A DNA stretch of 64,000 nt, from the NCBI RefSeq assembly GCF_024806835.1, contig NZ_JANTYU010000007.1, positions 62,001 through 126,000 on the forward strand, written 5' to 3'. The translations under genes were made by a program, and so were the position numbers. The stretch comes from Xanthomonas sp. 3793. Its GTDB lineage: Bacteria; Pseudomonadota; Gammaproteobacteria; Xanthomonadales; Xanthomonadaceae. Shown here in pieces: positions 27,779-62,805 of this stretch; the first letter of the stretch is position 1; the number at the start of each line of letters is the position of its first letter. The notes beneath the pieces are model-generated. The model was not told the origin of the DNA. It was given only the letters and a program-made list of their open reading frames with translations, and did no database searches.

Positions 27779-28165
27779 ATGCGTGCAACCGCTTCTTTCT
27801 TCGATACCTCGGCCATCGCCTTGTCTGGTCTGTGCCTGCTGCATTGCCTGGCACTGCCCCTGCTGGCCGCCGCGCTTCCGCTGCTGGGCGCATGGACGCG
27901 TGCCGAGTGGGTGCACGTGGTGTTCGCCGCTGCGGCAGTCCCGCTGAGCAGCTACGCGCTGTGGAGCACGCATCGGCGCCACGCGCTGCCGGCGTCGGTG
28001 TGGACCCTGGCGGGCGTGGGACTGGCCGGCCTGGCACTGGGCGCAAGCGGCATTGCAGGCGGCACCCTGGAAACCCCCATCACGGTTACCGGCAGCCTGC
28101 TACTGGCCAGCGCGCACCTGCTCAATCTGCGACTGCGTCGCCGCGCGGGGCGATGCGTGGGCTGA
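27779..28165 (+). CDS. MerC domain protein, probable zinc-limitation membrane transporter
   Basis: A 128-residue membrane protein with four predicted helices. The first helix carries the MerC-type cysteine pair in [15 protein letters not shown], and Gly/Ala-rich helices follow. MerC proteins were first described in mercury uptake. Here there is no mer operon, and the gene starts 18 bases from a Zur-like box shared with a zinc-chaperone GTPase, so a role in zinc or other divalent-metal uptake under starvation is inferred. Confidence 0.85.
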
Positions 28166-28349
28166 ACCTGACCAGGCGCGCCGACTGGATGCCGTCGTGG
28201 ACGATGACGTGCGAGGGGCGCGCAGCAGCTGCAACACCACGCGCCGATGTGCGTTTGGCAAAGACTGGCCGCTGCAGTGGCCGCGGCGGCGGTCGGCCCC
28301 CGAGGTTGGCGACGGTACGGTGGCCGGGCCGCCTGATCTCAGGTATCTC

Positions 28350-28377
28350 GCGAGAACGCGCCTGCGTGCGTTCTCGC
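28350..28377. terminator. Hairpin between convergent merC-like and nuclease genes
   Basis: GCGAGAACGC and its exact complement GCGTTCTCGC with an eight-base loop, 185 bases past the MerC gene and 75 bases past the nuclease stop. It could terminate both; there is no T-run. Confidence 0.45.
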
Positions 28378-28451
28378 AACCTGGCACTGCATGCAGGCAT
28401 CGATTGCGCGCCTTCGCCGGCGTCGACGCGACGACCCTGCCTCGGCATCAG

Positions 28452-37294: not shown

Positions 37295-38905
<1,611 letters not shown>

Positions 38906-39108
38906 GCGGCAACGCGCCCTGGCGCTGTGTGCAGCGGTCGCTCCATCACCGCGCGTGCAGCGTGTGGGACCCGATGAGGGCATCCGGCCGGTCTCCAGCG
39001 TCTGCGTCGCTCTTGCCGCCTGTAGTCCGCACCACATCCGCGCATTCAATCGCACGACCTTAATCGCACGAGTGCCGGCCACGCCGGCGATGTGCAGAGA
39101 CCGACCCG

Positions 39109-41136
39109 ATGACACAGCACGACTCGATCGTCACACCACCGCAGCGGCCCTTCGCCAAGATCCTGATCGCCAATCGCGGCGAGATCGCGTGCCGCATCAT
39201 TGCAACCTGCCGCAGGCTCGGCATCGCCACGGTGGCGGTGTATTCGGACGCAGACCGCGATGCGCGGCATGTGCGCCTGGCCGACGAAGCGATCCATCTC
39301 GGCCCGGCACCGGCGCAGCAGAGCTACCTGCGCGGCGATGCGATTCTCGATGCGGCACGCGTCAGTGGCGCCGAGGCGATTCATCCGGGTTACGGATTCC
39401 TGTCTGAAAATGCCGCGTTTGCCGAGGCCTGCGCGCAGGCCGGCGTTGTGTTTATCGGCCCGCCGGCAAGCGCGATTCGCGCGATGGGCGACAAGAGCGC
39501 GGCCAAGGCGGTGATGGAACGTGCGGGCGTGCCGTTGACGCCGGGTTATCACGGGCCCGAACAGGCGCCCGCGTTTCTGCGTGCGCAAGCCGATGCCATC
39601 GGCTACCCGGTCCTGATCAAGGCCAGCGCCGGTGGCGGCGGCAAGGGCATGCGCCGGGTCGATGCCGGCGCCGCGTTCGAGGAGGCACTGGCCAGTTGCC
39701 AGCGCGAGGCGCAATCGGCGTTCGGCAATGCGCATGTGCTGGTGGAGAAATACGTCGAGCGTCCGCGACATATCGAGATCCAGGTATTCGGCGATGCGCA
39801 TGGCGAGGTGGTGTATCTGTTCGAACGCGACTGCTCGGTACAGCGCCGGCACCAGAAGGTGCTGGAGGAAGCGCCCGCACCGGGCATGACCGAACAACGT
39901 CGTGCGGCGATGGGCAAGGCGGCCGTGGATGCAGCGCGCGCGGTGGGGTACGTCGGCGCCGGCACGGTGGAGTTCATCGCCGGGCCGGATGGCGATTTTT
40001 ACTTCATGGAAATGAACACCCGGCTGCAGGTGGAGCACCCGGTCACCGAGTTGATCACCGGCACCGATCTGGTCGAATGGCAACTGCGCGTGGCCGCAGG
40101 CGGGCCGTTGCCGCAACGCCAGGAGGCGCTGCGCATCCACGGCCATGCGCTGGAAGCGCGCCTGTATGCCGAAGATGCCGACCGCGGTTTTCTGCCTTCT
40201 ACCGGCACCCTGCGCCAGCTGCAGCTGCCGGCCACCAGCGCGCATGTGCGGATCGATGCAGGTGTGGAGCAAGGCGACACCATCAGCCCTTACTACGACC
40301 CGATGATCGCCAAGCTCATCGTCTGGGACATCGACCGCCCGGCGGCACTGGCACGCATGCGCGAGGCGCTTGCGCAGGTGCATGCAGTGGGCGTGACCAC
40401 CAATAGCGCCTTCCTTGCGCGGCTGGTCGGCACTCATGCGTTTGCGACTGCCGATCTGGATACCGCGCTGATCGAACGCGAGCAGGCGGCGCTGTTTCCG
40501 CAGGCAACCGTACCGCAACCTGCATGGTGGTGCCTGGCCGCGGTGCTGCTTGCCGAACAGGCGCCACTTGCCCGCAACGATCCGGCCGATCCGTACTCGC
40601 CGTGGCAGACCCGCGACGGATGGCGCATCGGCCTGCATGCAGCGCGTAGCGTGACGCTGGAGGCCGCCGGCGAACGCCGCGCACTTGCGTTGCGTCCGCT
40701 CGCCGATGGCTGGGAGGTGAGGTCCGCCGATGCCACCCACCTGCTGCGGTATCACGTGCAGGACGACGGGTTGCGCGTGGAGGTGGACGGCCGGCAATGG
40801 CGCGTACAGGCGCTGCACGACGGCGCTGCGGTGACCTTGCGCGATGGCAGGCACAGTGCGCTCTTCCGTCATCACGATGCCCTGGTGGAGGCCGATCAAC
40901 CGGCGCATGCCGGCGGCGGCCTGACTGCCCCGATGCCCGGCCGCATCGTGGCGCTGACCGCGCCGGTCGGCGAAACGGTGACGCGCGGGCAGGCGCTGGT
41001 GGTCATGGAAGCGATGAAGATGGAGCACACCTTGCACGCCCCCAGCGACGGCACGGTACAGGCCTACCTGGTGGCCGAAGGCGATCTGGTCGCCGATGGC
41101 GCCTTGTTGGTGGAATTCGTGTCCGCGAAAGCGTAG
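39109..41136 (+). CDS. liuD: 3-methylcrotonyl-CoA carboxylase, alpha (biotin carboxylase/carrier) subunit
   Basis: A 675-residue protein. The biotin carboxylase domain spans residues 1-450: IANRGEIACRI, the Gly-rich ATP loop ASAGGGGKGMRRV, MEMNTRLQVEHPVTE and the EARLYAED segment. A linker and BT domain follow, and the biotinyl domain has the biotinylated lysine K637 in VMEAMKMEH. It carboxylates biotin, which LiuB transfers to methylcrotonyl-CoA. It lies 203 bases after liuB; liuC (hydratase) and liuE (lyase) are not between them or immediately after. Confidence 0.95.
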   Translation: MTQHDSIVTPPQRPFAKILIANRGEIACRIIATCRRLGIATVAVYSDADRDARHVRLADEAIHLGPAPAQQSYLRGDAILDAARVSGAEAIHPGYGFLSENAAFAEACAQAGVVFIGPPASAIRAMGDKSAAKAVMERAGVPLTPGYHGPEQAPAFLRAQADAIGYPVLIKASAGGGGKGMRRVDAGAAFEEALASCQREAQSAFGNAHVLVEKYVERPRHIEIQVFGDAHGEVVYLFERDCSVQRRHQKVLEEAPAPGMTEQRRAAMGKAAVDAARAVGYVGAGTVEFIAGPDGDFYFMEMNTRLQVEHPVTELITGTDLVEWQLRVAAGGPLPQRQEALRIHGHALEARLYAEDADRGFLPSTGTLRQLQLPATSAHVRIDAGVEQGDTISPYYDPMIAKLIVWDIDRPAALARMREALAQVHAVGVTTNSAFLARLVGTHAFATADLDTALIEREQAALFPQATVPQPAWWCLAAVLLAEQAPLARNDPADPYSPWQTRDGWRIGLHAARSVTLEAAGERRALALRPLADGWEVRSADATHLLRYHVQDDGLRVEVDGRQWRVQALHDGAAVTLRDGRHSALFRHHDALVEADQPAHAGGGLTAPMPGRIVALTAPVGETVTRGQALVVMEAMKMEHTLHAPSDGTVQAYLVAEGDLVADGALLVEFVSAKA

Positions 41137-41238
41137 CCCCACCCGGCAGGGTGACCAACGGCACGTCCGCACGCCTCGATACTGCACGTAGCGTGGCCGG
41201 ATCGGCTGGATTGGCCGCGATTCCCACCGGAGGCTTTC

Positions 41239-43332
41239 ATGCAACGCCTGCTTCTCGTTTCCAGCATGCTGCTGGCGTTGTCCGCCTGCAGCGACAAGAC
41301 CGCTCCACCCACCAGCACCGCGGCAACCGCCGCGCAGACGCCCACGGCCGCGCCCGCACCGGTCACCGCGCCTGAGCTGATCACCCGCGATGCGCTGTTC
41401 GGCAATCCGGAGCGCGCCAACGTCAGCATCAGCCCGGATGGCAAGTACCTCAGCTGGGTGGCCCCGCTGGATGGCGTGCTCAACGTCTGGGTCGCGCCGG
41501 TGGATGCACCGGACCAGGCGCATGCGATCACCAAGGACACCGCGCGCGGCATCCGCAACTATTTCTGGACCTATCACACCGACACCTTGTTGTACCTGCG
41601 CGACAACGGCGGCGACGAGGATTTCCATCTGTTCTCGGTCAACCTGAGCGATAGCAGCAGCAAGGATCTCACCCCCTTCCAGAAGACCAATGCCGAGGTG
41701 GCCGCGATCAGCGCGCACCATCCGGAATCGATCATGGTCGGCATGAACGACCGCGATGCGAAGTGGCACGATCTGTATCGCGTCGACCTGGCCACGGGTA
41801 AACGCACCCTGGTGCAGAAGAACACCGACAGCCTGGACAGCTACCTGCTCGATGGCGACTTCCGGCTGCGCTATGCGACCCGCGCCACCGACGATGCCGG
41901 CAGGGAATTGCTGGTGCCCGATGGAAAGGCATGGAAGAGCGTGGATCGCATTCCGTTCGAGGATGTCACCAACACCTCGCCCGAGGGACTGACCGACGAC
42001 GGCAAGACGCTGTACATGCGCGATTCGCGCAACCGCGATACCTCCGCGTTGTATGCCATCGACACCGCCAGCAACGCACGCACACTGCTGTTCGAGAACC
42101 CGAAGGCCGACGTCGGCGACACCTTGAGCGACCGCAAGACCGGAGCCGTACAGGCAGTGTCCACCGATTATCTGCGCGAAGAATGGAAGGCGCTGGATAC
42201 CGGGATCGCTGCCGACCTGCAGAAACTCAAGTCGCTCGGTGCCGGCGATGCCGCGGTGGCCGCACGCACGCTCGATGACCGCACCTGGATCGTCGCTTAC
42301 TCGGCCGCGGAAACGCCGACGACGTATTATCGCTACGACCGCGCCGACGGCGGCAAGCTGAGCAAGCTGTTTTCCGCTCGGCCTGCACTCGAGGGCAAGC
42401 CGCTGGTGCCGATGTGGCCGCAGGCGCTGACCGCGCGCGATGGCCTCACCCTGGTCAGTTACCTCACCCTGCCCGCCGAGGCCGACGCCAACCACGACGG
42501 CAAGGCAGACAAGCCGGTGCCGTTGGTGCTGTTCGTGCATGGCGGCCCGTGGGCGCGCGACAGCTATGGCTATGGCCCTTACGAGCAATGGCTGGCCAAT
42601 CGTGGCTACGCGGTGCTGTCGGTCAATTTCCGCGGCTCCACCGGCTTCGGCAAGGCCTTCACCAACGCCGGTAACGGCGAGTGGGCCGGCAAGATGCACG
42701 ACGACCTGCTCGATGCGGTGCAGTGGGCGGTCAAGCAGGGCGTGACCAAACCCGACCAGGTCGCCATCATGGGCGGCAGCTACGGCGGCTACGCCACGTT
42801 GGTAGGCATGACCTTCACCCCGGACAGCTTCAAGTGCGGCGTAGACATCGTCGGCCCGGCCAATCTCAACACCTTGCTCGGCACCGTGCCGCCGTACTGG
42901 GCCAGCTTCTACAAGCAGCTGACCAAGCGCATGGGCGACCCGGCCACCGTCGCCGGCAAGCAATGGCTGACCGAACGCTCCCCGCTCACCCACGTCGACA
43001 AGATCAGCAAGCCGCTGCTGATCGGCCAGGGCGCCAACGACCCACGCGTCAAACAGGCCGAAAGCGACCAGATCGTCAACGCGATGAAAGCCAAGAACAT
43101 CCCGGTCACCTACGTGCTGTTCCCCGACGAGGGCCACGGCTTCAAGCGCCCGGAAAACAGCAAGGCCTTCAACGCAGTGACCGAAGGCTTCCTGAGCCAA
43201 TGCCTGGGCGGCCGCGCGCAACCGATCGGCGCCGACTTCGAAGGCTCCAGCATCACCGTCCCGGAAGGCGCCGACAAGGTCACCGGCCTGAGCGATGCGT
43301 TGAAGACGCATACGCAGGCGATTCGGAAGTAG
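41239..43332 (+). CDS. S9-family prolyl oligopeptidase-like lipoprotein peptidase
   Basis: A 697-residue exported peptidase. The lipobox LSAC puts the lipidated Cys at C17; a Thr/Ala/Pro-rich linker (20-45) follows, then a beta-propeller (50-420) with WD40/PD40-like repeats such as NVSISPDGKYLSWV, and the S9 catalytic domain (430-680). Catalytic residues are S514 (GGSYGGYA), D601 (GANDPRVKQ) and H633 (DEGHGF). It probably cleaves short peptides, dipeptidyl-peptidase style, in the periplasm or at the outer membrane. AGG precedes the ATG. Confidence 0.94.
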   Translation: MQRLLLVSSMLLALSACSDKTAPPTSTAATAAQTPTAAPAPVTAPELITRDALFGNPERANVSISPDGKYLSWVAPLDGVLNVWVAPVDAPDQAHAITKDTARGIRNYFWTYHTDTLLYLRDNGGDEDFHLFSVNLSDSSSKDLTPFQKTNAEVAAISAHHPESIMVGMNDRDAKWHDLYRVDLATGKRTLVQKNTDSLDSYLLDGDFRLRYATRATDDAGRELLVPDGKAWKSVDRIPFEDVTNTSPEGLTDDGKTLYMRDSRNRDTSALYAIDTASNARTLLFENPKADVGDTLSDRKTGAVQAVSTDYLREEWKALDTGIAADLQKLKSLGAGDAAVAARTLDDRTWIVAYSAAETPTTYYRYDRADGGKLSKLFSARPALEGKPLVPMWPQALTARDGLTLVSYLTLPAEADANHDGKADKPVPLVLFVHGGPWARDSYGYGPYEQWLANRGYAVLSVNFRGSTGFGKAFTNAGNGEWAGKMHDDLLDAVQWAVKQGVTKPDQVAIMGGSYGGYATLVGMTFTPDSFKCGVDIVGPANLNTLLGTVPPYWASFYKQLTKRMGDPATVAGKQWLTERSPLTHVDKISKPLLIGQGANDPRVKQAESDQIVNAMKAKNIPVTYVLFPDEGHGFKRPENSKAFNAVTEGFLSQCLGGRAQPIGADFEGSSITVPEGADKVTGLSDALKTHTQAIRK

Positions 43333-43381
43333 GCTCTGATCGCGTCGCGCGGGGCGACTGAATGTATCTGCGGATCCTGAT

Positions 43382-43419
43382 CGCACTGCGCTCGGCGGTT
43401 ATCCACCGAGCGCAGTGCG
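43382..43419. terminator. Hairpin after the S9 peptidase gene
   Basis: A 14-base stem (CGCACTGCGCTCGG with its exact complement) and a ten-base loop, 50 bases past the stop. No T-run follows. It also marks the left edge of the lower-GC RiPP-like region. Confidence 0.6.
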
Positions 43420-43585
43420 GGATGAGGCACATCGTCCGAACGTCATCACTGTAAGGCCGATGCCGTGACATCAGGTAGCCACCCGTGCAGTGCGCGGGAT
43501 GGCACACCGCTCTCAATCTGAATGCATGCGCTCGCGTGGTACCCCGGCGGCGCCAAACGTGGCAGCCGATCAGGCGAATCGTCAG

Positions 43586-44749
43586 CTAGCTCGACACCCA
43601 GACTTCGTTGTTGGGATCGAGCTCCATATTTTGCATGATATCGCCGCGCACACCGAAGCCACACAATGCCACCACCCCTTCCATGATCGGCTCCAGTCCG
43701 AGCAACGCTTCGATCTGGACTTCATTGATTGCGCAGGTGACGAATGCACCCAATCCCACATCTGTGGCTGCCATATACAGCGTTTGCGAGAAATGACCTG
43801 CTTCCAGCGCAAGCGCTCGATACGCCTTCGCATGCATGCGGTACTTCCAGAAATTGCGGTAGTAACGCGGGCAGAGCGCCACGATCACCTGTGCATTGGC
43901 GAACCAGTCCTGCCCCGCCAGTAGACTCAGCGCGACATCCTGCAGATTGTCCACCTCCACACGAAGCGGCTCCAGGGCATGATCGATGGGAAGGTAGTGG
44001 TAAATCCCATCCGCGATACCCGACACGTTACGGATCAACAGATACGCGTCCAACGGATGCAGGCCGCCACCCGACGGACTTGAGCGCTTGATAAACACTG
44101 TGTCTGGATCGGCCTCCAGCACTGCATTGGCAGCGAAGGTTCGCTCGATGATCTGCGCAAACATCGCAGCATCCATGTGCGCATGGGTCGCGAAGTTTCT
44201 GCAGGTGGTACGACGTCGGAGCACTGTATCCAGGTGGCTGTGATTCTGGGCCCGTGTGAGGCAGATTGCATCGGTCGTTCCCCGTAGCACCTGCTCGGGC
44301 GGCGGCGGGCCGAAGGTCCGCAGCAATCCGGCAGCAGTGTCCGCACCTGCGTCCTTGGCTGCTTGCGCAGAGTCGACATCATTCCAACGGGTAAAGGCGT
44401 GATAGGTTGCCGCGAGAGGATGCCACTGACTGTGGCGTTGGACGGTATCGCGGTGCTGTACCAGATGCGTCTGTTCGCTGTCCTCTAACAGCAGACCCTT
44501 GTCCAACAGCGATCGCACAACAGATGGTTCTTCAACGGCCATCGCGTCTTGCCAGCTGCTCGGACTCAACCGGCCCAACACAAGCGCCTCCGCCTCGGTC
44601 AGAACACACTCCCCATCCAGATGCGGCGCAAGGGCGACCCAGCGCAATGCACGCGAGGCACCGGCACCTCCCGCACACAGATCGACAAGATCAATCGCAA
44701 CAGACTCTCTGGGCTCGAGATAGACAACCGCACAACGCCTTACTCGCAT
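43586..44749 (-). CDS. SagB-type peptide maturation dehydrogenase
   Basis: A 387-residue two-part protein. Residues 1-180 resemble a small winged-helix/RRE-like region (ALVLGRLSPSSWQDAM, VVRSLLDKGLLLED); the RRE reading is inference. Residues 190-387 form a SagB-type nitroreductase fold: VLRRRTTCRNFATHAH, SSPSGGGLHPLDAYLL, GIYHYLPIDHALEPL and EAGHFSQTLYMAATDVGLG, which line the FMN site. I recall that xanthomonad homologues are named putative peptide maturation dehydrogenase. Such enzymes oxidise azolines or other backbone/side-chain groups in RiPPs. I use the ATG at 44749; the frame upstream overlaps the divergent precursor gene. GC content is below that of neighbouring genes. Confidence 0.88.
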   Translation of the reverse strand: MRVRRCAVVYLEPRESVAIDLVDLCAGGAGASRALRWVALAPHLDGECVLTEAEALVLGRLSPSSWQDAMAVEEPSVVRSLLDKGLLLEDSEQTHLVQHRDTVQRHSQWHPLAATYHAFTRWNDVDSAQAAKDAGADTAAGLLRTFGPPPPEQVLRGTTDAICLTRAQNHSHLDTVLRRRTTCRNFATHAHMDAAMFAQIIERTFAANAVLEADPDTVFIKRSSPSGGGLHPLDAYLLIRNVSGIADGIYHYLPIDHALEPLRVEVDNLQDVALSLLAGQDWFANAQVIVALCPRYYRNFWKYRMHAKAYRALALEAGHFSQTLYMAATDVGLGAFVTCAINEVQIEALLGLEPIMEGVVALCGFGVRGDIMQNMELDPNNEVWVSS

Positions 44750-44764
44750 GTTCTTGGACTCATC

Positions 44765-44799
44765 TTTAGATTGATCTTCTAGCGGTCTGGATTTAGATT
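44765..44799. promoter_or_regulatory. AT-rich divergent promoter region with TTTAGATT direct repeat
   Basis: TTTAGATT occurs at 44765-44772 and 44792-44799 (27-base period) within a line of sequence that is only about 40% GC. It sits between the divergent dehydrogenase and precursor genes, so it may be an activator or repressor site controlling both. Confidence 0.5.
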
Positions 44800-44828
44800 T
44801 CTTGAAGACCTCCCTACCATTGAAGAGC

Positions 44829-45140
44829 ATGAACGAGAACGAGAAAGGCCCTGTCCCACTGCAACCGGACACAGCACACAGGCTGCTGGATCTTCTGGCA
44901 ACCGATGATGGATTCCGCGACCTGTTCAAGAACGACACGAAGGCCGCATTGGTGCAGGTCGGTCACCCCCCCGAGGATGCCGAGCTGCTCGCGGCTCAAC
45001 TCAAGGTAGAAAATCTGGCCGACAAGGCTTCCATTGCACAGGCACGCGACGACATCCACGCCAGCCTGACGTCGTCGGCCAATATGCAACCGATTCGACT
45101 GAATGTTCCCTCGGGATCGACGCCCCAACTCAAGAAGTAA
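44829..45140 (+). CDS. NHLP-related RiPP precursor peptide
   Basis: A 103-residue peptide with a nitrile-hydratase-alpha-like leader: AHRLLDLLATDDGFRDLF and KAALVQVG at residues 16-45 match the usual pattern of helices and a closing Gly. The C-terminal 24 residues (SLTSSANMQPIR onward, then LNVPSGSTPQLKK) are the likely core. There is no Cys and no GG/GA leader-cleavage motif. Possible starts are ATG 44829 (used), TTG 44820 and TTG 44802; none has a good ribosome site. It diverges from the dehydrogenase and converges on the cyclase with 27 bases between stops. I recall the family name NHLP-related RiPP peptide in xanthomonads; no product is known to me. Confidence 0.82.
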   Translation: MNENEKGPVPLQPDTAHRLLDLLATDDGFRDLFKNDTKAALVQVGHPPEDAELLAAQLKVENLADKASIAQARDDIHASLTSSANMQPIRLNVPSGSTPQLKK

Positions 45141-45167
45141 TCGTGCTGCGGCAAATGACACCCTCGG

Positions 45168-47660
45168 TCATTCGCCGCCAGCTTTCATGGCATCAAAGAC
45201 ATTCATCGGCTGCTGGCACCACCCACAGCCGCCGAACTCGGCATAAGCGCGCCCATGCGCGTTTTGTAGCCATCCGGATTCGTTTGCCGCGGAGTGTTGA
45301 TCGCCTAAAGACGTGTACGCCTCTTTCAGCACGACGTGGTACTGGTAGGCCTCAGTCCCATCCAGACGCGGCTTGAGCAGTTGCACGGCCTCGCTGGCGC
45401 GCCCCTCAAGAAGCGCCGTCCGTGCCTGCAGCAGCAAGACCAGCTCTGCCACAGAAGGCATCTTGGCCAGCTCTGGCTTAGCCATCAGTGCCTGCAGGAC
45501 TGCCTTGGCCGTTGCAGCGTTCCCCAGGCGCTGCCCCAACAGTGCCAAGGAAGCGGCAACTACCGCGTTGGAGCGCTGACTGAAACCATCCGCGCTTGTT
45601 GAGATACTCGCCAACGCCTCAGGGACCGTCGCCTCGATTGTCGCCAGGACTTCGGCATGCTGTCCCTGCGCATATTGCGCTGCGGCCGTGGCCACCAACG
45701 ATTGGCGGTAGCGCGTGGAAGTGTGCTCGATACCTTTGGAAAGACGCAGTATTTCCGGAAGCGCTTTATCGCTGCGCCCTTCATCGATATAGATGGAGAC
45801 CTGATCGAAATAGGCGACATCCAGGCGTTTTTCGTCCGGCCAGATGGCGTGCGCAGCCGCAAAGTCCCCCATCACAGCCAGGGTCACCGCTTCCCAGACT
45901 GCAGCCGATGCGAGGCCAGAGGCTCTGGCTGAGCGGAATGCTGCCAGTGCTTCCTTCTTTTTCCCCAACGCCAACTGCATCCGACCGAGAAGCTCCAATG
46001 CTAACGGGTCGTATTCGTAGCGGGATGAAGCGGCACTCTTGGCGTAGACAAGCGCTTCCCTGTAGCGATTACGCGCTTCCAGGGCATACGCGGTATTCTC
46101 GGCGGCAGCGAAATCGTCCGGATACAGATTGGCCATCTGCATCCATTTTTCGTATGCGTTTATTGGATCCTTGATCTGTGCGTACCACGCGTCCAAGTAG
46201 ACCTGCTCGCGTGGAGGAAGCTTTCCTCGGAAGCTGAGAGCCTTCTCCAGATAAGGCAATCCGAGTGATGGCTCTTCCAAATAATAGTTGCAGCGCGCTA
46301 CGCCTACATTGGCCAGCGCAAATGTCGGATCAAGCTCTACCGCCCTCATGTAATAGTCGCGTGCACGCAGATAATGCCCGGTGCCAAATTCGCGCTGCGC
46401 CAGTGCGTACGCGTTCAATGCATCCATATTTGCGGTGGACACGCGCGGAAGCGGTGCAGAATTCACCTTGATAGACGCCAGCGTTTCGCCAAGTCCTGCG
46501 CGCAGATTGGAGCTTACCGCGTCAATCGAAGACAGCAGCGAGCGCTGGCCGCGACCCTCGGAGTGATACATGTAGACCGTCGCCTGCGTTACAGGATCGA
46601 TCACTTCAACGGTCACACGAAGGTTGCCGCCAACATCCGCCACGCTCGGCAGTATCAGGGCTTTGGCGCCAGATCGAAGGGCAATTTGCGCACCCAGCGC
46701 ACGGTCGATCTTGGCACGATCGCTCTGCTTCATCAGTTCCAGCATGTCGTGCGCGCGTTTCTCGGACACGAGGTTGACGTGCTTTGACTGCTGGAGACTG
46801 AGTCGTAATGCTTGCTGCAACGGGTCATCGAGGACAGCGCTGTCGGTAAGGTTGTGCAGATCGCCGACCACCACCCAATCGCGCTCGGCGAAAGCGATGG
46901 CAGGCTCCGGACGACCGATGATCCACAGGATGCCTGCGGTAAGCAGGATCAATGCGACCTCCGTCATCAACGCCGCCGGCCGGCGCCACAGCGGCACATC
47001 GCGCCAGGCCTTCGCCGAGTTTTTCGGCATGCGCAGCGGGGTCAGGCCGACTTCGCCGACTTCGTAGATCTCCATCGGCGTGGGCACGCCCTTGAAGCGC
47101 CAGCGGCCGTGGGACTTCCACAGGATGCGTTCGGCGCGGTCGCCCAGTTCGCGTGCGGCGCGGTGGGTCAAGGATTCGGCCACGGCCGAGATCAGGATCT
47201 GCCCCGGCCGCGCCATCGACATCAGGCGTGCGGCAGTCGGTTTGGCCAGGCCTTCGACTTCCAGCGGTTTGGCGCCGATGCTCACTGCCTCGTCGCTGTT
47301 GCGCCAGGTCAGCACTTCGCCGACGTGCAGGCCCTGGCGCGCGCACAAGGTGAGCGCGTGGGCATCGCCCATCGCCTTGAGCCCGCGCGCGTAATCCAGT
47401 GCAAAGCCCAGCCCGTCGATCGGGCGGTCGAACAACAACAGCAAACCGTCGGAGCGGTCGATCAGGCGGCCGCGCCACTGCTGCTGCAGCTTGACCACCA
47501 AGCGGTCGTGTTCGCGGAACAGTGCCGCGGCGGCGTTGTCGCCGATGCGTTCGACCAACGCGGTCGAATCGCATAGGTCGGTCAACAGCAAGGTACGAAG
47601 ACGCGGGGCCTGCATCGCCTCCGACGACGCGTCCTTGCGTGCGTGGGTGCGGGCGCTCAT
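45168..47660 (-). CDS. Peptide modification system cyclase: class III cyclase-like domain, TM, TPR
   Basis: An 830-residue protein. Residues 20-200 form a class III nucleotide-cyclase-like domain with both metal Asp positions (D28 in LLLTDLCDST, D71 in RSDGLLLLFD) and the Arg of AARL (R145). The transition-state Asn normally four residues before that Arg is Pro (P141), so activity is uncertain. A membrane helix spans 230-249. A TolB/FlgO-like domain lies at 255-400, TPR-like repeats at 405-800, and a Cys-containing tail EFGGCGWCQQP ends the protein. I recall homologues named putative peptide modification system cyclase. It starts three bases after the diguanylate cyclase stop. GC drops from about 70% to 53-58% at the membrane helix. 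Confidence 0.88.
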   Translation of the reverse strand: MSARTHARKDASSEAMQAPRLRTLLLTDLCDSTALVERIGDNAAAALFREHDRLVVKLQQQWRGRLIDRSDGLLLLFDRPIDGLGFALDYARGLKAMGDAHALTLCARQGLHVGEVLTWRNSDEAVSIGAKPLEVEGLAKPTAARLMSMARPGQILISAVAESLTHRAARELGDRAERILWKSHGRWRFKGVPTPMEIYEVGEVGLTPLRMPKNSAKAWRDVPLWRRPAALMTEVALILLTAGILWIIGRPEPAIAFAERDWVVVGDLHNLTDSAVLDDPLQQALRLSLQQSKHVNLVSEKRAHDMLELMKQSDRAKIDRALGAQIALRSGAKALILPSVADVGGNLRVTVEVIDPVTQATVYMYHSEGRGQRSLLSSIDAVSSNLRAGLGETLASIKVNSAPLPRVSTANMDALNAYALAQREFGTGHYLRARDYYMRAVELDPTFALANVGVARCNYYLEEPSLGLPYLEKALSFRGKLPPREQVYLDAWYAQIKDPINAYEKWMQMANLYPDDFAAAENTAYALEARNRYREALVYAKSAASSRYEYDPLALELLGRMQLALGKKKEALAAFRSARASGLASAAVWEAVTLAVMGDFAAAHAIWPDEKRLDVAYFDQVSIYIDEGRSDKALPEILRLSKGIEHTSTRYRQSLVATAAAQYAQGQHAEVLATIEATVPEALASISTSADGFSQRSNAVVAASLALLGQRLGNAATAKAVLQALMAKPELAKMPSVAELVLLLQARTALLEGRASEAVQLLKPRLDGTEAYQYHVVLKEAYTSLGDQHSAANESGWLQNAHGRAYAEFGGCGWCQQPMNVFDAMKAGGE

Positions 47661-47663
47661 GCC

Positions 47664-48731
47664 TCAGCCATGCCCCGGAGCAGGCGCAGCGCCGGATGGC
47701 GGCGGTGCGAGCGCTTGGTGCATGGCCAGCACATTGCCGCCTTGCCGCTTGGCTTCGTACAGCGCGCTATCGGCGAGCGTGTACCAGTCGTTCCAGGACG
47801 CCTCCGCATCGATCATGCACAGGCCGACGCTGACCGAGCAGCCCTGCTCGCCCTGGTTGTTGCATAGGCGCGCTTCCACCGCGCGCACGATGCACTCGCC
47901 GATGTGGTGCACCAGCTCCGGGGTGCCTTGCGCAACCAGCACGCAGAATTCGTCGCCGCCGAGACGGCAGGCAAGATCGCCCTCGGCGATGACCGAACGC
48001 AGGGCATGCGCCACGTTCTGCAACACGCGGTCGCCGGCCAGATGGCCGAACTCGTCGTTGATGCGCTTGAAGCGGTCGCAGTCGATCAGGATCAGCCCGA
48101 CGCCCGGCACGTTGCCGACGCGTCGACATTCCTGCAGATACAGCGCCAGACCGCGCCGGTTGTGCAGCCCGGTCAGCTCGTCGGTGCGGCTGAGTTCTTC
48201 GGTGTGGTTGAGCTGGTGCGAGGTGACGTAGAGATTGTCCAGCGCCGCTTCCAGATCGTGGTTGCGACGGCGCAGCTGACGGATCAGCAGCTGCTCGTTG
48301 TTGACCACACGCACGATGGAGCGGCGCAGAAAATGCGCGACCATCGAAGGATCGTGGTCGACCAGACGCTGAAAATCGTCGTGCGCCAGTTCGATCAGGC
48401 GGCTGTCCATGGATGCGCTGGCACCGGCACTGCGCGCGTGATCGCCGATGAGCAGGCCGAGCTCGCCAAAAAATTCGCCTGGCCCCAGGTGCTTGAGCGT
48501 CAGGTCTTCGCCGAAATCCAGGTCGATCTGGCCACTGACCACGATGAACATCTGGGTGCCGATCGCACCGCGCTCGAACAGCGCCTGGCCCGCGGCAAGC
48601 TCACGGGGACGGCCGAAGCGGGCGAAAAACGCCAGTTCGTCAGCGGTCATCAACGCATGCAGCCCGTCCGAGAGCGTCTTGGCAACGCTTCCGGTCGGCT
48701 CAACTGCGCCTGCAGTGTTGTGGCAAGTCAT
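47664..48731 (-). CDS. Diguanylate cyclase with N-terminal cyclic-nucleotide-binding domain
   Basis: A 355-residue signalling protein. A CNB (Crp-like) domain covers residues 35-125, with phosphate-binding-cassette features GEFFGELGLL and R100-S101 (HARSAGASA). A coiled-coil linker (140-182) follows, then a GGDEF domain (183-340) with an intact RLGGDEFC active site at 258-262. The inhibitory I-site Arg is replaced by A249 (AEGD), so product feedback is probably absent. It predicts cNMP-controlled synthesis of c-di-GMP. The cyclase-TPR gene follows after three bases (TGAGGCATG), implying coupled expression. Start ATG 48731 is preceded by GGAAACGGG. Confidence 0.92.
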   Translation of the reverse strand: MTCHNTAGAVEPTGSVAKTLSDGLHALMTADELAFFARFGRPRELAAGQALFERGAIGTQMFIVVSGQIDLDFGEDLTLKHLGPGEFFGELGLLIGDHARSAGASASMDSRLIELAHDDFQRLVDHDPSMVAHFLRRSIVRVVNNEQLLIRQLRRRNHDLEAALDNLYVTSHQLNHTEELSRTDELTGLHNRRGLALYLQECRRVGNVPGVGLILIDCDRFKRINDEFGHLAGDRVLQNVAHALRSVIAEGDLACRLGGDEFCVLVAQGTPELVHHIGECIVRAVEARLCNNQGEQGCSVSVGLCMIDAEASWNDWYTLADSALYEAKRQGGNVLAMHQALAPPPSGAAPAPGHG

Positions 48732-48853
48732 CCCGTTTCCTTAGGCCGGCCCGCACCATTAGCCCGTGGGCAAATCCTACAGGAACCCCACGGCCCCGCA
48801 CCAGATCACACTCTTTCTCTCGGGAAAAGAGACGGAATGTCGGGTATTGCCGC

Positions 48854-48881
48854 AAAAAAAAGGGCCCGGTTTCCCGAGCCC
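48854..48881 (-). terminator. Intrinsic terminator of aceA
   Basis: Read on the minus strand, an eight-base GC stem (GGGCTCGG with CCGGGCCC, one G-U pair) and a four-base loop are followed by eight T residues, 44 bases past the aceA stop. Confidence 0.9.
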
Positions 48882-48924
48882 TCTCCCCCTCCCGGGGTGG
48901 CGAAACGCGGCGGCCCGCTGCAGG

Positions 48925-50220
<1,296 letters not shown>

Positions 50221-50528
50221 CTTGCGTTCTCCTGAAGAGGTACGACGGATGGAACGAGGAAGGAACGGCGCGCATGCGATGCACGCGGCATGGCGAGGCC
50301 GTCGTTGCGTCTGCGCGCAACGGGCGGTGTGCTGCATTGAGGTGAGGAGTGCAGGGGCACCATGGGTGTCGCTGCAATGCGGTGATTAGAGCGGCTACCA
50401 GAACGTAGCGAGCAGTCGTCAGGTGGGTGCGGACGGCGCGGAGGAACCGGAGTGTACGAGCGGCACATGAGGATTCCGAGCACCGGCCGCGCCCGCCTGC
50501 AGGCTGCGCAGTAGTTCTGTTGGCTGCT
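50221..50528. other. 308-base spacer between aceB and aceA
   Basis: It may hold a separate aceA promoter. I see no terminator with a T-run after aceB and no gene. Confidence 0.4.
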
Positions 50529-52145
50529 CTAGTCGATCAGGCGGTACGCCGGCACGGTGAGAAAGTCCGCCAGTTCATCGGCACGGCTGAGTTCTTCCAG
50601 CAACGCGATTGCCTCATCGATTCGCGTGGCGCCAGGGAGTGCCGTGGCTGTCCCCAGGCGCGCCGGCAATGCGCGCAGGGTTGCCTGCAGCAGTTGCTGA
50701 TCGATGGCGGTGCCGTCGTCCAGATGCTGGCCGTGATGCAGCCACTGCCACAGCTGCGCGCGACTGATTTCGGCGGTGGCGGCGTCTTCCATCAGGTTGT
50801 GGATCGGCACGCAGCCATTGCCTTCCAGCCAGGCGGCCAGATAACGCACGCAGACTTCGACATTACCTTCGAAACCGGCGCGGGTGATGGTGCCCGGCGA
50901 AGGCGCGATCAGCATGTCGCGCGTCACCTGCACATCGTTGCGCAACACATGCTGCTGATGCGCGGTGGGCATGTGTTCGTCGAACAGTTTCATCGCCACC
51001 GGAATCAACGCCGGATGCGCCACCCAGGTGCCGTCGTGGCCGGCGGTGACCTCGCGCAGCTTGTCGGCGCGCACGCGTGCCATGGCCTGTTCGTTGGCAG
51101 CCTCATCGTGGTTGATCGGAATCTGCGCGGCCATCCCGCCCATCGCATGCGCGCCGCGGCGGTGACAGGTCTTGATCAGCAGTTCCGAATACGCCTTCAA
51201 GAACGGTTGGGTCATGGTGACCTGGCCACGCTCGGGCAACACACGGTTGCGGTGCGCGCGGAAGGTCTTGAGATACGAAAAGATGTAGTCCCAGCGCCCG
51301 CAATTGAGCCCGACGATGCGCTCGCGCAGCGCATGCAGGATCTCGTCCATCTCGAACACTGCCGGCAGCGTTTCGATCAGCACGGTGACCTTGATCTGGC
51401 CGTGCGGCAGACCCAGCATCGCTTCGATGTGCGCCAGCGCGGTCTCCCACAGCGCGGCTTCTTCCATGCTCTGCAACTTGGGCAGGTACAGGTAGGGGCC
51501 GCGGTCCTTGGCCAGCAGCGCGCGGGCGTTGTGGAAGGCGAACAACGCCGCGTCGAATAGGCCGCCCGCCAGCGGCTGGCCATCGATATGGACGTGTTTT
51601 TCGTCCAGGTGCCAACCGCGCGGGCGCACGATCAGCACCGCACGCTCGGCTTCCGGGCGCAGCGCGTAATGCTTGCCATTGGGCGCATCGAAGCTGAGGT
51701 CGCCGCGCACGGCGGCGGCCAGGGTGCGCTGGCCGGCCAGCAGGTTGCGCCAGGTCGGCGCGGTGGAATCCTCGAAGTCGGCCATGAACACCTTGGCGCC
51801 GGAGTTCAGCGCATTGATGACCATCTTCGGATCGGTCGGGCCGGTGATCTCCACGCGCCGGTCCTGCAGCGCCGCCGGCAGCGCGGCGACGCGCCAGTCG
51901 CCGGCGCGGATGGCGTGGGTGTCCGCACGAAAGTCCGGCAGCTGGCCGGCATCGAAGGCGGCCTGGCGGGCACGCCGCTGGGCCAGCCGCTGCTGGCGGC
52001 CGGGCTCGATCGCCCGATGCAGCGACACCAGCAGTGCCAGCGCGGCTGGCGGCAGCAGCTCCGCCTGCCCTGCAACCTGTGTGGTCAACGACAAACCGGG
52101 CGTGGCGCGGTCGGTGGGACGTGAAGCGAAAGCGGTGGCAGACAT
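50529..52145 (-). CDS. aceB: Malate synthase A
   Basis: A 538-residue malate synthase that condenses glyoxylate with acetyl-CoA. Conserved features are GPTDPKMVINALNSGA with DFEDS, LYLPKLQSMEEA, KVTVLIETLPAVFEM and GLNCGRWDYIFS, followed by MGGMAAQIPI and the C-terminal catalytic Asp in HNLMEDAATAE. AAGGA precedes the ATG at 52145. It is divergent from a LysR regulator with a dyad in between. Confidence 0.96.
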   Translation of the reverse strand: MSATAFASRPTDRATPGLSLTTQVAGQAELLPPAALALLVSLHRAIEPGRQQRLAQRRARQAAFDAGQLPDFRADTHAIRAGDWRVAALPAALQDRRVEITGPTDPKMVINALNSGAKVFMADFEDSTAPTWRNLLAGQRTLAAAVRGDLSFDAPNGKHYALRPEAERAVLIVRPRGWHLDEKHVHIDGQPLAGGLFDAALFAFHNARALLAKDRGPYLYLPKLQSMEEAALWETALAHIEAMLGLPHGQIKVTVLIETLPAVFEMDEILHALRERIVGLNCGRWDYIFSYLKTFRAHRNRVLPERGQVTMTQPFLKAYSELLIKTCHRRGAHAMGGMAAQIPINHDEAANEQAMARVRADKLREVTAGHDGTWVAHPALIPVAMKLFDEHMPTAHQQHVLRNDVQVTRDMLIAPSPGTITRAGFEGNVEVCVRYLAAWLEGNGCVPIHNLMEDAATAEISRAQLWQWLHHGQHLDDGTAIDQQLLQATLRALPARLGTATALPGATRIDEAIALLEELSRADELADFLTVPAYRLID

Positions 52146-52195
52146 GTGGAGGTCCTTGTGCGTCCGGACCTGCACCGTGCGCCGCCAGCAACTAT

Positions 52196-52216
52196 TTGAC
52201 AAAGCAGTTTTATCAA
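52196..52216. promoter_or_regulatory. Dyad and promoter elements between aceB and lysR
   Basis: TTGAcAAAgC pairs with TTGATAAAAC on the other strand (eight of ten matching) across 52196-52216, a LysR-like interrupted dyad. The same TTGACA can serve as a -35 element for the LysR gene, with TGTAAA 18 bases on. Confidence 0.55.
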
Positions 52217-52263
52217 TGCTGTAAATAAGCTGTACTTATATTCAATCCGGAAGCCAGCTCCAT

Positions 52264-53220
52264 ATGGCGCCAACCCCTCGATTTTCCTACAAATCCGACC
52301 GTCTCAAGCCGCTGCGTGCGTTCTGCCAGACAGTGCGGCTTGGCTCGGTCTCACGGGCGGCTGAGGCGCTTTACGTCAGCCAACCGGCAGTAACCCTGCA
52401 GCTGCAAGCCCTGGAGCGCGATCTCGGCGTGGCCCTGTTCGAGCGCTCCGGGCGCCGCCTGGCCCCCAGCCGCGAAGGACAGCTGCTGTACGACATGGCA
52501 CTGCCGCTGGTGGAAAGCCTGGACGGGCTGGAGGCCAGCTTTCGCGAGAAGGTACGTGGGCTGGATGCCGGCGAGCTCAATATCGCCGCCAACAGCTCCA
52601 CCATCCTGTACCTGCTGCCGCGCATCGTGGCGAACTTCCGCGCGCGCCATCCGGACGTGCGCCTGACCCTGCACAACGCGATCAGCGCCGATGGCACCGA
52701 CCTGTTGCGCGAAGACGCCGTCGACCTGGCGGTCGGCTCCATGCTGGACGTACCCGCCGACCTCAACTACGCGCCGGTGTATCGCTTCGAGCAATTGCTG
52801 ATCACCCCGCCCGACCACCCGTTGGCCGGCAAGTCCACGGTCACGCTGCAGGATCTGTCGCCGTATCCGTTGATCCTGCCGCCACGCCGACAGGTGACCT
52901 ATCGCCTGGTCGACCTGATCTTTCAGCAGGCACGCGTGCCGTACACCGTCGCGCTGGAAGTGGGCGGCTGGGAAGTGATCAAGCAATACGTGGCGATGGG
53001 CATGGGCATTTCCATCGTCACCGCGATCTGCGTCACCGATGCCGATCGCGACAAACTGGCCACGCGCTCGCTCAAGGACTACTTCCCCACCCGCAGTTAT
53101 GGCGTGGTGGTGCGCAAGGGCAAGTATCTGTCGCCGCAGGCGCGTGCCTTTATCGAGCTGATCCAGCCGGATCTGTTTACGCCGCGCGGGTACGACGAAG
53201 GCGGCGATTCGGAACGTTGA
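52264..53220 (+). CDS. LysR-family regulator, probable regulator of the glyoxylate shunt
   Basis: A 318-residue LysR regulator. The winged HTH is at residues 15-75 (AFCQTVRLGSVSRAAEAL, VSQPAVTLQLQALERDLG), and the co-inducer domain at 95-300 resembles CysB-type binding domains (NSSTILYLLPRIVANF, GMGISIVTAICV). Divergence from aceB, with a dyad between, suggests that it controls aceB and perhaps aceA; its effector is unknown. Confidence 0.9.
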   Translation: MAPTPRFSYKSDRLKPLRAFCQTVRLGSVSRAAEALYVSQPAVTLQLQALERDLGVALFERSGRRLAPSREGQLLYDMALPLVESLDGLEASFREKVRGLDAGELNIAANSSTILYLLPRIVANFRARHPDVRLTLHNAISADGTDLLREDAVDLAVGSMLDVPADLNYAPVYRFEQLLITPPDHPLAGKSTVTLQDLSPYPLILPPRRQVTYRLVDLIFQQARVPYTVALEVGGWEVIKQYVAMGMGISIVTAICVTDADRDKLATRSLKDYFPTRSYGVVVRKGKYLSPQARAFIELIQPDLFTPRGYDEGGDSER

Positions 53221-62648: not shown

Positions 62649-62805
62649 GGCGTGTGATTCCTGAGTGGTTGTTACGGCAGCCGGTCACGCTAGCGGGTTT
62701 GCCGGCCGCTGGCATGTGCCGTTGGCTGGGGGATCGATGACTGGTTGTGCAGCTGACGTGGCCAGCATGCCTTGATCCGTGCGCTGATCTGTATGCTGGG
62801 CCCCG

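Follow-up and report, generated by a model that had tools for sequence, protein, structure and literature searches.

A candidate peptide-signal/receptor locus with exchangeable alleles on the cGMP to c-di-GMP pathway of Xanthomonas

Gene content of the cassette

We analysed a window of 64,000 nucleotides from Xanthomonas sp. 3793 (the whole stretch of DNA under study, whose coordinates are used throughout) and focused on four adjacent genes encoding a SagB-type dehydrogenase, a small precursor peptide, a guanylate cyclase joined to tetratricopeptide repeats (TPR), and a protein with a cyclic-nucleotide-binding (CNB) and a GGDEF domain. An earlier note on this DNA had described them as a compact cassette resembling those for ribosomally synthesised and post-translationally modified peptides (RiPPs), and the cassette is real. 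The SagB-type protein (43586-44749, minus strand), of the nitroreductase fold, scores 488 bits against TIGR04511 (cut-off 240) and matches the Pfam nitroreductase family; the 103-residue precursor (44829-45140, plus strand) scores 86 bits against TIGR04509 (cut-off 34); and the 830-residue cyclase-TPR protein (45168-47660, minus strand) scores 1096 bits against TIGR04510 (cut-off 400). NCBIfam calls these families putative peptide maturation dehydrogenase, NHLP-related RiPP peptide and putative peptide modification system cyclase, respectively; with linked genes and all three proteins over the curated cut-offs, the window holds a member of this trio. The 355-residue CNB-GGDEF protein (47664-48731, minus strand) is recognised by Pfam at 66.6 bits for CNB and 130.4 bits for GGDEF, and the cyclase gene starts three bases after it. 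The precursor gene runs the other way, diverging from SagB and converging on the cyclase; the codons for its C-terminal end and the sensor-encoding end of the cyclase gene therefore lie tail to tail.

The precursor consists of a predicted helical leader and a C-terminal core. Its structure model places helices at residues 13-82 and a low-confidence tail at residues 85-103, with a mean predicted local distance difference test (pLDDT) of only 59, which is poor. The putative core of this allele, which belongs to the class that we call class 1, is residues 85-103 (45081-45137, plus strand), a segment conserved within the class whose borders we chose ourselves. The nitrile-hydratase-like leader described in the earlier note has its basis in the name of TIGR04509; the related model NF038399 matches the precursor only below its cut-off. 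We regard the precursor, the SagB enzyme and a modified product as a putative RiPP system, an assignment based on the precursor and enzyme genes.

Orthology of the output half to a published cGMP pathway

The earlier note missed that half of the cassette has been characterised: the cyclase and the CNB-GGDEF protein correspond to XC_0250 and XC_0249 of X. campestris. XC_0250 is a class III cyclase joined to a TPR domain of uncharacterised function and makes cyclic GMP (cGMP); the linked XC_0249 binds cGMP and then makes more cyclic di-GMP (c-di-GMP); and losing either lowers biofilm formation and virulence (An et al, 2013; PMC3770947). The main text of that paper names neither a precursor nor SagB.

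The catalytic domain (residues 17-200; 47061-47612, minus strand) is not recognised in the window protein by a Pfam search, and its half of the protein is orthologous to XC_0250. Five of the six cyclase residues tested in XC_0250 (D41, D71, L73, A150 and A161) are present at the same numbers, and position 157 has Ile instead of Leu. In the GGDEF protein all five cGMP-contact residues (F73, E90, H98, N145 and E146) are kept. These tested cyclase and CNB residues are invariant in all 29 Xanthomonas loci except for position 157, which is I, L or V within the genus. The CNB domain (residues 23-151; 48279-48665, minus strand), delimited by alignment to PDB 5h5o, is identical to this entry, titled 'Diguanylate cyclase', at 122 of 129 positions; we infer that 5h5o is XC_0249 itself, although PMC3770947 names entry 4KG1 instead. 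The GGDEF domain (residues 178-337; 47721-48200, minus strand) matches TIGR00254 at 118 bits. Judged by adjacency and by the conserved catalytic and cGMP-contact residues, the two window proteins are orthologues of the published cGMP to c-di-GMP pair and by this measure belong to its pathway, whose activities were shown for the X. campestris proteins.

Linkage and distribution in the Xanthomonadaceae

Among 149 Xanthomonadaceae genomes, the cyclase is over cut-off in 93, SagB in 91 and the precursor in 93, and a CNB-GGDEF match (E<=1e-45) is present in 93. Cyclase and precursor occur together in 91 genomes, cyclase and CNB-GGDEF in 86. Seven genomes have the GGDEF match without an over-cut-off cyclase (two of these, G011 and G120, hold cyclase pieces), and seven have the cyclase without the GGDEF match, one of them at a contig end. 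In a class-wide sample, TIGR04511 is over cut-off in 5 of 369 genomes, all of the same order. Within the genus, 29 of 35 Xanthomonas genomes have the cyclase; the six that do not are also without the GGDEF orthologue and have just generic GGDEF matches of at most 87 bits.

We collected 119 loci, 118 of them fetched for carrying the cyclase or SagB, plus the window. All four genes are present in 103, which bears out the conserved linkage that the earlier note had proposed as a check. Of the 108 loci that have both cyclase and GGDEF gene, 103 show the two side by side in the same direction (in the other five, the mechanically called open reading frame of the cyclase overruns the GGDEF gene), and the precursor nearest the 3' end of the cyclase is convergent with it in 110 of 116. 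This four-gene arrangement is far beyond chance. The site is largely fixed, since a homologue of aceA or aceB adjoins most loci. The idea that signalling is coupled to peptide maturation, running through cyclic nucleotides to c-di-GMP, fits both this linkage and the published pathway; its peptide-modification part is putative.

An allelic block of sensor, precursor and SagB

When compared with G064, a genome of the same species, the window is colinear over 64 kb at 0.957-1.000 identity per kilobase, except for an allelic block at 43337-46866 (a feature without strand) where blastn finds nothing. The flanks of the block are 99.1% (38710-43336) and 97.3% (46867-52612) identical, and of the kilobase that starts at 46001 only 13% aligns, with an identity of 0.776. 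There are two further gaps, of 309 bp at 28142-28450 and 74 bp at 62726-62799. SagB, the precursor and the part of the cyclase after about residue 265 lie in the block and are replaced together. Between the two genomes the GGDEF protein is 99.4% identical, compared to 34.5% for SagB and 29.5% for the precursor; residues 1-200 of the cyclase are 100% identical and residues 201-250 70%, after which identity is 50%, dropping to 20%. In G064, moreover, the SagB gene is on the strand opposite to that of the cyclase. In this one same-species pair of genomes, the variable parts, putative ligand and sensor, have thus changed as a unit while the output stayed constant, as would be seen in a pherotype locus.

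The same division holds across the genus. The 29 Xanthomonas loci fall into six sensor classes; precursor classes agree with these in 29 of 29 loci, and SagB classes in 27 of the 28 loci having SagB (L223 joins class 3 at a 62% cut). The catalytic domain (0.83-1.00 identical to that of the window) and the GGDEF protein (0.82-0.99) do not track the sensor classes. Records of X. arboricola include class 1 (NL_P126), class 2 (pv. juglandis, pv. guizotiae and CFBP 7645) and class 3 (pv. populi). Along the cyclase, different classes are on average 0.86-0.99 identical up to residue 200, 0.83 at residues 201-225, 0.55-0.73 at residues 226-275 and 0.14-0.63 beyond; within classes, identity after residue 275 is 0.56-0.95. 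The 886 residues of XC_0250, compared to 830 in the window, are the length of class 2 (e.g., L113), so that, judged by length only, XC_0250 may carry another sensor allele.

For tests on the whole family we kept the 100 of 119 loci with exactly one cyclase of at least 780 residues, one SagB of at least 340 residues, one GGDEF gene and at least one precursor, dropping 19. These 100 cassettes hold 62 sensor classes at a 62% identity cut, and clustering by GGDEF protein at 20% distance gives 16 groups of loci, 12 of which contain two or more of these classes. Classes also cross genera: the G064 sensor is 0.48 identical to that of L173, from another genus, compared to 0.26-0.29 to other Xanthomonas sensors. 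With catalytic-domain and GGDEF distances removed, the distances between sensors have a partial correlation of 0.72 with those between SagB proteins and of 0.52 with those between precursors (0 of 500 permutations each). For the catalytic domain of the same protein, the corresponding values given GGDEF are 0.14 with SagB and 0.08 with the precursor.

The part of the precursor that changes with the sensor

In three other lineages the swapped block is smaller, consisting of the C-terminal end of the precursor and the TPR part of the cyclase; leader, SagB and catalytic domain are conserved. L137 and L139 are 95% identical in nucleotides up to cyclase codon 460; beyond it, only two short, weak matches are found through the remaining cyclase and the last ~60 precursor codons, and over the leader and on through SagB identity is back at 93%. 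The pattern recurs in L130/L140 and L116/L118, where it involves the last 42 and 20 precursor codons, respectively; in these two pairs the stretch from leader to SagB also holds extra precursors and aligns only in part. Across the three lineages, leaders are 0.95-0.97 and SagB proteins 0.88-0.93 identical, compared to 0.32-0.55 for cores and 0.49-0.62 for sensors. Among the 48 close pairs that retain leader and SagB, cores are on average 0.44 identical where the sensor has changed (five pairs) and 0.87 where it is similar (43 pairs). In L151/L139 and L137/L151, too, SagB and leader are conserved while sensor and core have changed; these pairs are not counted as close, their catalytic domains being 0.78 identical. 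L168/L154 show a swap that spares SagB (0.91) but not the leader (0.62), with sensors 0.35 and cores 0.30 identical.

Within a class the picture is reversed: in each of the three classes measured, the core is conserved better than the rest of the precursor. Core identity in classes 1, 2 and 3 is 0.954, 0.883 and 0.954, compared to 0.821, 0.832 and 0.838 for the leader, using 12 of 15 loci in class 2 (L207, L215 and L220 left out) and four of five in class 3 (the fragmented L228 left out). In class 1 the proportions of nonsynonymous (pN) and synonymous (pS) differences in the core are 0.025 and 0.79. Read from these alignments, the core is under constraint inside one allele, and a change of allele exchanges it along with the sensor. 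Precursor end and sensor thus vary together, which goes further than the earlier note had seen. The cyclase is better read as a receptor than as part of the peptide-modifying machinery.

Sensor topology and SagB chemistry

Hydropathy predicts one membrane span in the window cyclase, at about residues 230-248 (46917-46973, minus strand). One span is found in 97 of the 100 cassettes and two in three, and the N-terminal side is the more positive in all 100, which predicts that the catalytic domain lies inside the cell and the TPR part in the periplasm. The AlphaFold model of the predicted sensor (residues 265-830; 45171-46868, minus strand; pLDDT 82.8) starts with a domain resembling the C-terminal domain of LpoB (4q6l, TMt 0.75), followed by a long TPR superhelix. 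Rap and NprR, cytoplasmic receptors of the RRNPP group whose TPR folds bind peptide pheromones, make up six of the best 50 VIA-align rows for this model, amid many unrelated TPR proteins that score alike. Unlike in those receptors, the TPR part here is predicted to be periplasmic and sits on a cyclase; any likeness is one of fold only, of a kind common among TPR proteins. The C-terminal CxxC of the window cyclase occurs in only 18 of 100 cassettes, and we rejected it as a conserved motif.

The window SagB aligns with CyaGox, BmdC and McbC. Its Trp301-Lys302-Tyr303 segment, kept in 100 of 100 cassettes, aligns with that of CyaGox, and for this reason the protein is probably an active flavin dehydrogenase. 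It shares the nitroreductase fold with McbC and CyaGox, SagB-type oxidases of the thiazole/oxazole-modified microcin (TOMM) and cyanobactin pathways; unlike in those pathways, there is no YcaO cyclodehydratase (no PF02624 match in the whole genome, which extends to the genome what the earlier note had said of the cassette). Azoline oxidation is therefore unlikely, and we rejected a TOMM-type azole product.

Variant cassettes and neighbouring genes

Directly adjoining the cassette is an S9 prolyl oligopeptidase with a lipoprotein-like start (41239-43332), within a flank conserved in Xanthomonas. We rejected it as the processing enzyme: it sits in the conserved flank (38710-43336, 99.1% identical in G064), and an S9 match is found in at most 41 of 119 loci. 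The earlier note had reported neither protease nor exporter in the cassette; the S9 gene next door qualifies the first part, and the second is strengthened by the lack of any C39 leader-peptidase exporter in the genome, other exporter types not having been searched.

The collection also includes unusual cassettes. The multi-copy loci L192 (G022:C2:338551-358425) and L190 (G067:C35:1-20000) are exceptions to the usual site; in them SagB is present several times, in part as fragments, precursors over cut-off number up to nine and lie on both strands, and the closest CNB-GGDEF relative is elsewhere in the genome. L199 (G040:C2:522111-535965) has five near-identical tandem precursor genes beside SagB and cyclase, in a genome without a CNB-GGDEF relative at E<=1e-45. 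G052, G060, G069, G094 and G107 carry a CNB-GGDEF relative, an orphan effector, and no over-cut-off cyclase. Several cassettes are apparently decaying (L207/L254 in X. vasicola, L215, L228/L251 in X. phaseoli, and L201), their signs being a missing SagB match, a 111-residue SagB piece or a cyclase in several pieces. A second cassette form, with SagB on the strand opposite to the cyclase, is seen in L181, L167, L173, L175, L180 and L202 (also L186, L191 and L200); its precursors are about 78-87 residues in most and have short hydrophobic tails such as VFCR. Such tails are one of the core-end motif groups that recur across genera, together with TPQLD-like, FEAG-like, PIRLN-like and CPPEL-like ends, a possible clue to the modified position.

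Discussion

On balance, and with some reserve, we favour the view that this is a polymorphic peptide-signal/receptor (pherotype) locus of Gram-negative bacteria, resembling ComQXPA, in which SagB modifies a peptide and a receptor guanylate cyclase recognises the product as its cognate ligand, passing the signal through cGMP to c-di-GMP. SagB would oxidise the C-terminal part of the precursor; the product would get to the periplasm and bind the TPR superhelix of the neighbouring receptor; and binding would set cytoplasmic cGMP synthesis, an activity demonstrated for XC_0250 whose regulation is what we propose here. The cGMP would then bind the CNB domain of the adjacent protein and raise c-di-GMP synthesis, as demonstrated for XC_0249, affecting biofilm formation and other traits. 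Strains differ in these ligand/receptor alleles while the output is constant, so the signal would be private to strains with the same allele. Supporting this interpretation, the output half is known and its key residues are conserved, the four genes are linked, and sensor, SagB and precursor are swapped on a constant output; three lineages break inside both the precursor and the cyclase genes; and the core is best conserved within class, the layout is that of ComQXPA, and Rap and NprR, whose TPR folds bind peptide pheromones, are among the structural matches of the sensor. More tentatively, at somewhat short of an even chance, we propose a specific form: a modified ribosomal peptide would gate the receptor guanylate cyclase, and matched alleles of ligand and receptor would be exchanged as a tail-to-tail block on a constant output across the Xanthomonadaceae.

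Several observations weigh against this interpretation. The cyclase domain alone gave biofilm formation back to an XC_0250 mutant (PMC3770947), which weakens it: the sensor is not needed for activity and would modulate rather than enable the enzyme. XC_0249 also has a second input, as it interacts with RpfG under diffusible signal factor (DSF) signalling according to passages of PMC3749722. One genome, G054, has the cyclase and GGDEF gene with neither precursor nor SagB (L172, G054:C1:1560595-1573072); this may be a receiver-only (cheater) locus or a sign that the output works without the peptide. The matches to Rap and NprR show fold and not function, since unrelated TPR proteins match as well. 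Only five of the 48 close pairs that retain leader and SagB differ in the sensor, and in 49 close pairs whose sensors stay similar although their leaders have diverged, core (0.81) and leader (0.79) identities are nearly equal. Across the family, the partial correlation of sensor and core with all other parts removed is only 0.117 (4 of 1000 permutations), below those of sensor and leader (0.216) and of SagB and core (0.255), and we dropped family-wide covariation as clean proof. Moreover, because core and sensor adjoin, hitchhiking can explain part of their match.

Taken as the whole explanation, hitchhiking would mean that only the exposed periplasmic sensor is under diversifying selection, by phage, predators or environmental ligands, and that the precursor end and SagB change along with it because the same conserved recombination arms flank them, with no relation of ligand and receptor. 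The contiguity of core, sensor and, in most classes, SagB speaks for this, as does the small family-wide correlation just given. Yet inside all three classes measured the core is more conserved than the leader, which implies a constraint that keeps pace with the sensor; three lineages have breakpoints that separate leader from core; and precursor and sensor classes coincide in 29 of 29 Xanthomonas loci. We consider this account unlikely.

Less likely still is a polymorphic antimicrobial peptide, where the modified product attacks competitors, the cyclase senses or tolerates its own variant, and cGMP is a side branch for autoinduction. A RiPP-like precursor beside a SagB-type enzyme, and the several precursors per locus of some genomes, would suit it; out of keeping with it are the conservation of the locus as a single copy, in most cases at the same place near aceA-aceB, and a constant cGMP/c-di-GMP output in place of an immunity gene. 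The genome also has neither a dedicated exporter nor a C39 peptidase (exporter types other than C39 were not searched), and with the same limit we rejected a bacteriocin with a C39 exporter. Pycsar-like defence was rejected, too: the cyclase has no PADLOC match, and the GGDEF protein has just a weak one, confined to its CNB part (best E 2.4e-9). Quite improbable, finally, is a SagB-modified peptide that stays in the cell as a cofactor-like or regulatory factor while the cyclase answers something else in the periplasm: SagB retains its catalytic residues, the precursor has no obvious export signal and the C39 search of the genome found no secretion route, but it would be unusual for housekeeping metabolism to show classes that span genera and are exchanged along with the sensor.

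The nearest analogue of a locus read as signal and receptor is ComQXPA of Bacillus, where, as passages of PMC4008528 describe, modifying enzyme, precursor, membrane receptor and output protein lie side by side, the peptide C-terminus and the sensor vary, the cytoplasmic receptor part and the output are conserved, and a species holds several pherotypes. In the same passages the export route of ComX is called unknown, and a census reports no comQXPA locus outside the Firmicutes. The likeness is one of analogy: the parts are unrelated, with a SagB-type flavoenzyme and an NHLP-like precursor here, a guanylate cyclase for the histidine kinase and cGMP/c-di-GMP for phosphotransfer, and the precursor, unlike in ComQXPA, is on the opposite strand. 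We rejected common descent, as the four window proteins match families other than the ComQ isoprenyl transferase, the ComP histidine kinase and the ComA response regulator. The layout also resembles that of animal receptor guanylyl cyclases, which have an outside ligand domain, one span, an inside guanylate cyclase and peptide ligands; the sensor fold is different and we claim no homology. To our knowledge no peptide-gated receptor guanylate cyclase of this kind has been described in bacteria, and we know of no pherotype locus built of these parts.

The family names and the cyclase/GGDEF pathway were already known. The NCBIfam trio names are provisional, and the one-line descriptions contain neither the CNB-GGDEF partner, the allelic block nor the identity with XC_0250. 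In one open-access library, search listings gave nothing on this locus, the allelic block or a ligand-receptor proposal, and no paper with XC_0251, XC_0252 or the trio accessions; one Vibrio paper contains the phrase 'putative peptide modification system'; the passages of further papers that deal with XC_0250/XC_0249 mention neither peptide nor SagB. Measured against that library, the new elements are a single locus that unites both halves, its allelic block and the proposed relation of ligand and receptor.

When cGMP signalling was established in Xanthomonas (PMC3770947), the cyclase's sensor domain stayed uncharacterised; the locus supplies a candidate ligand encoded tail to tail with it. 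This raises a testable question: does the precursor control cGMP only via the sensor of its own allele? The proposal gives a possible role to an orphan RiPP-like family, found over cut-off in 93 of the 149 Xanthomonadaceae genomes sampled. It also points to a division of closely related plant-associated bacteria into communication groups. If it is true, it would reveal a private peptide language in Gram-negative bacteria and answer what controls the XC_0250/XC_0249 pathway.

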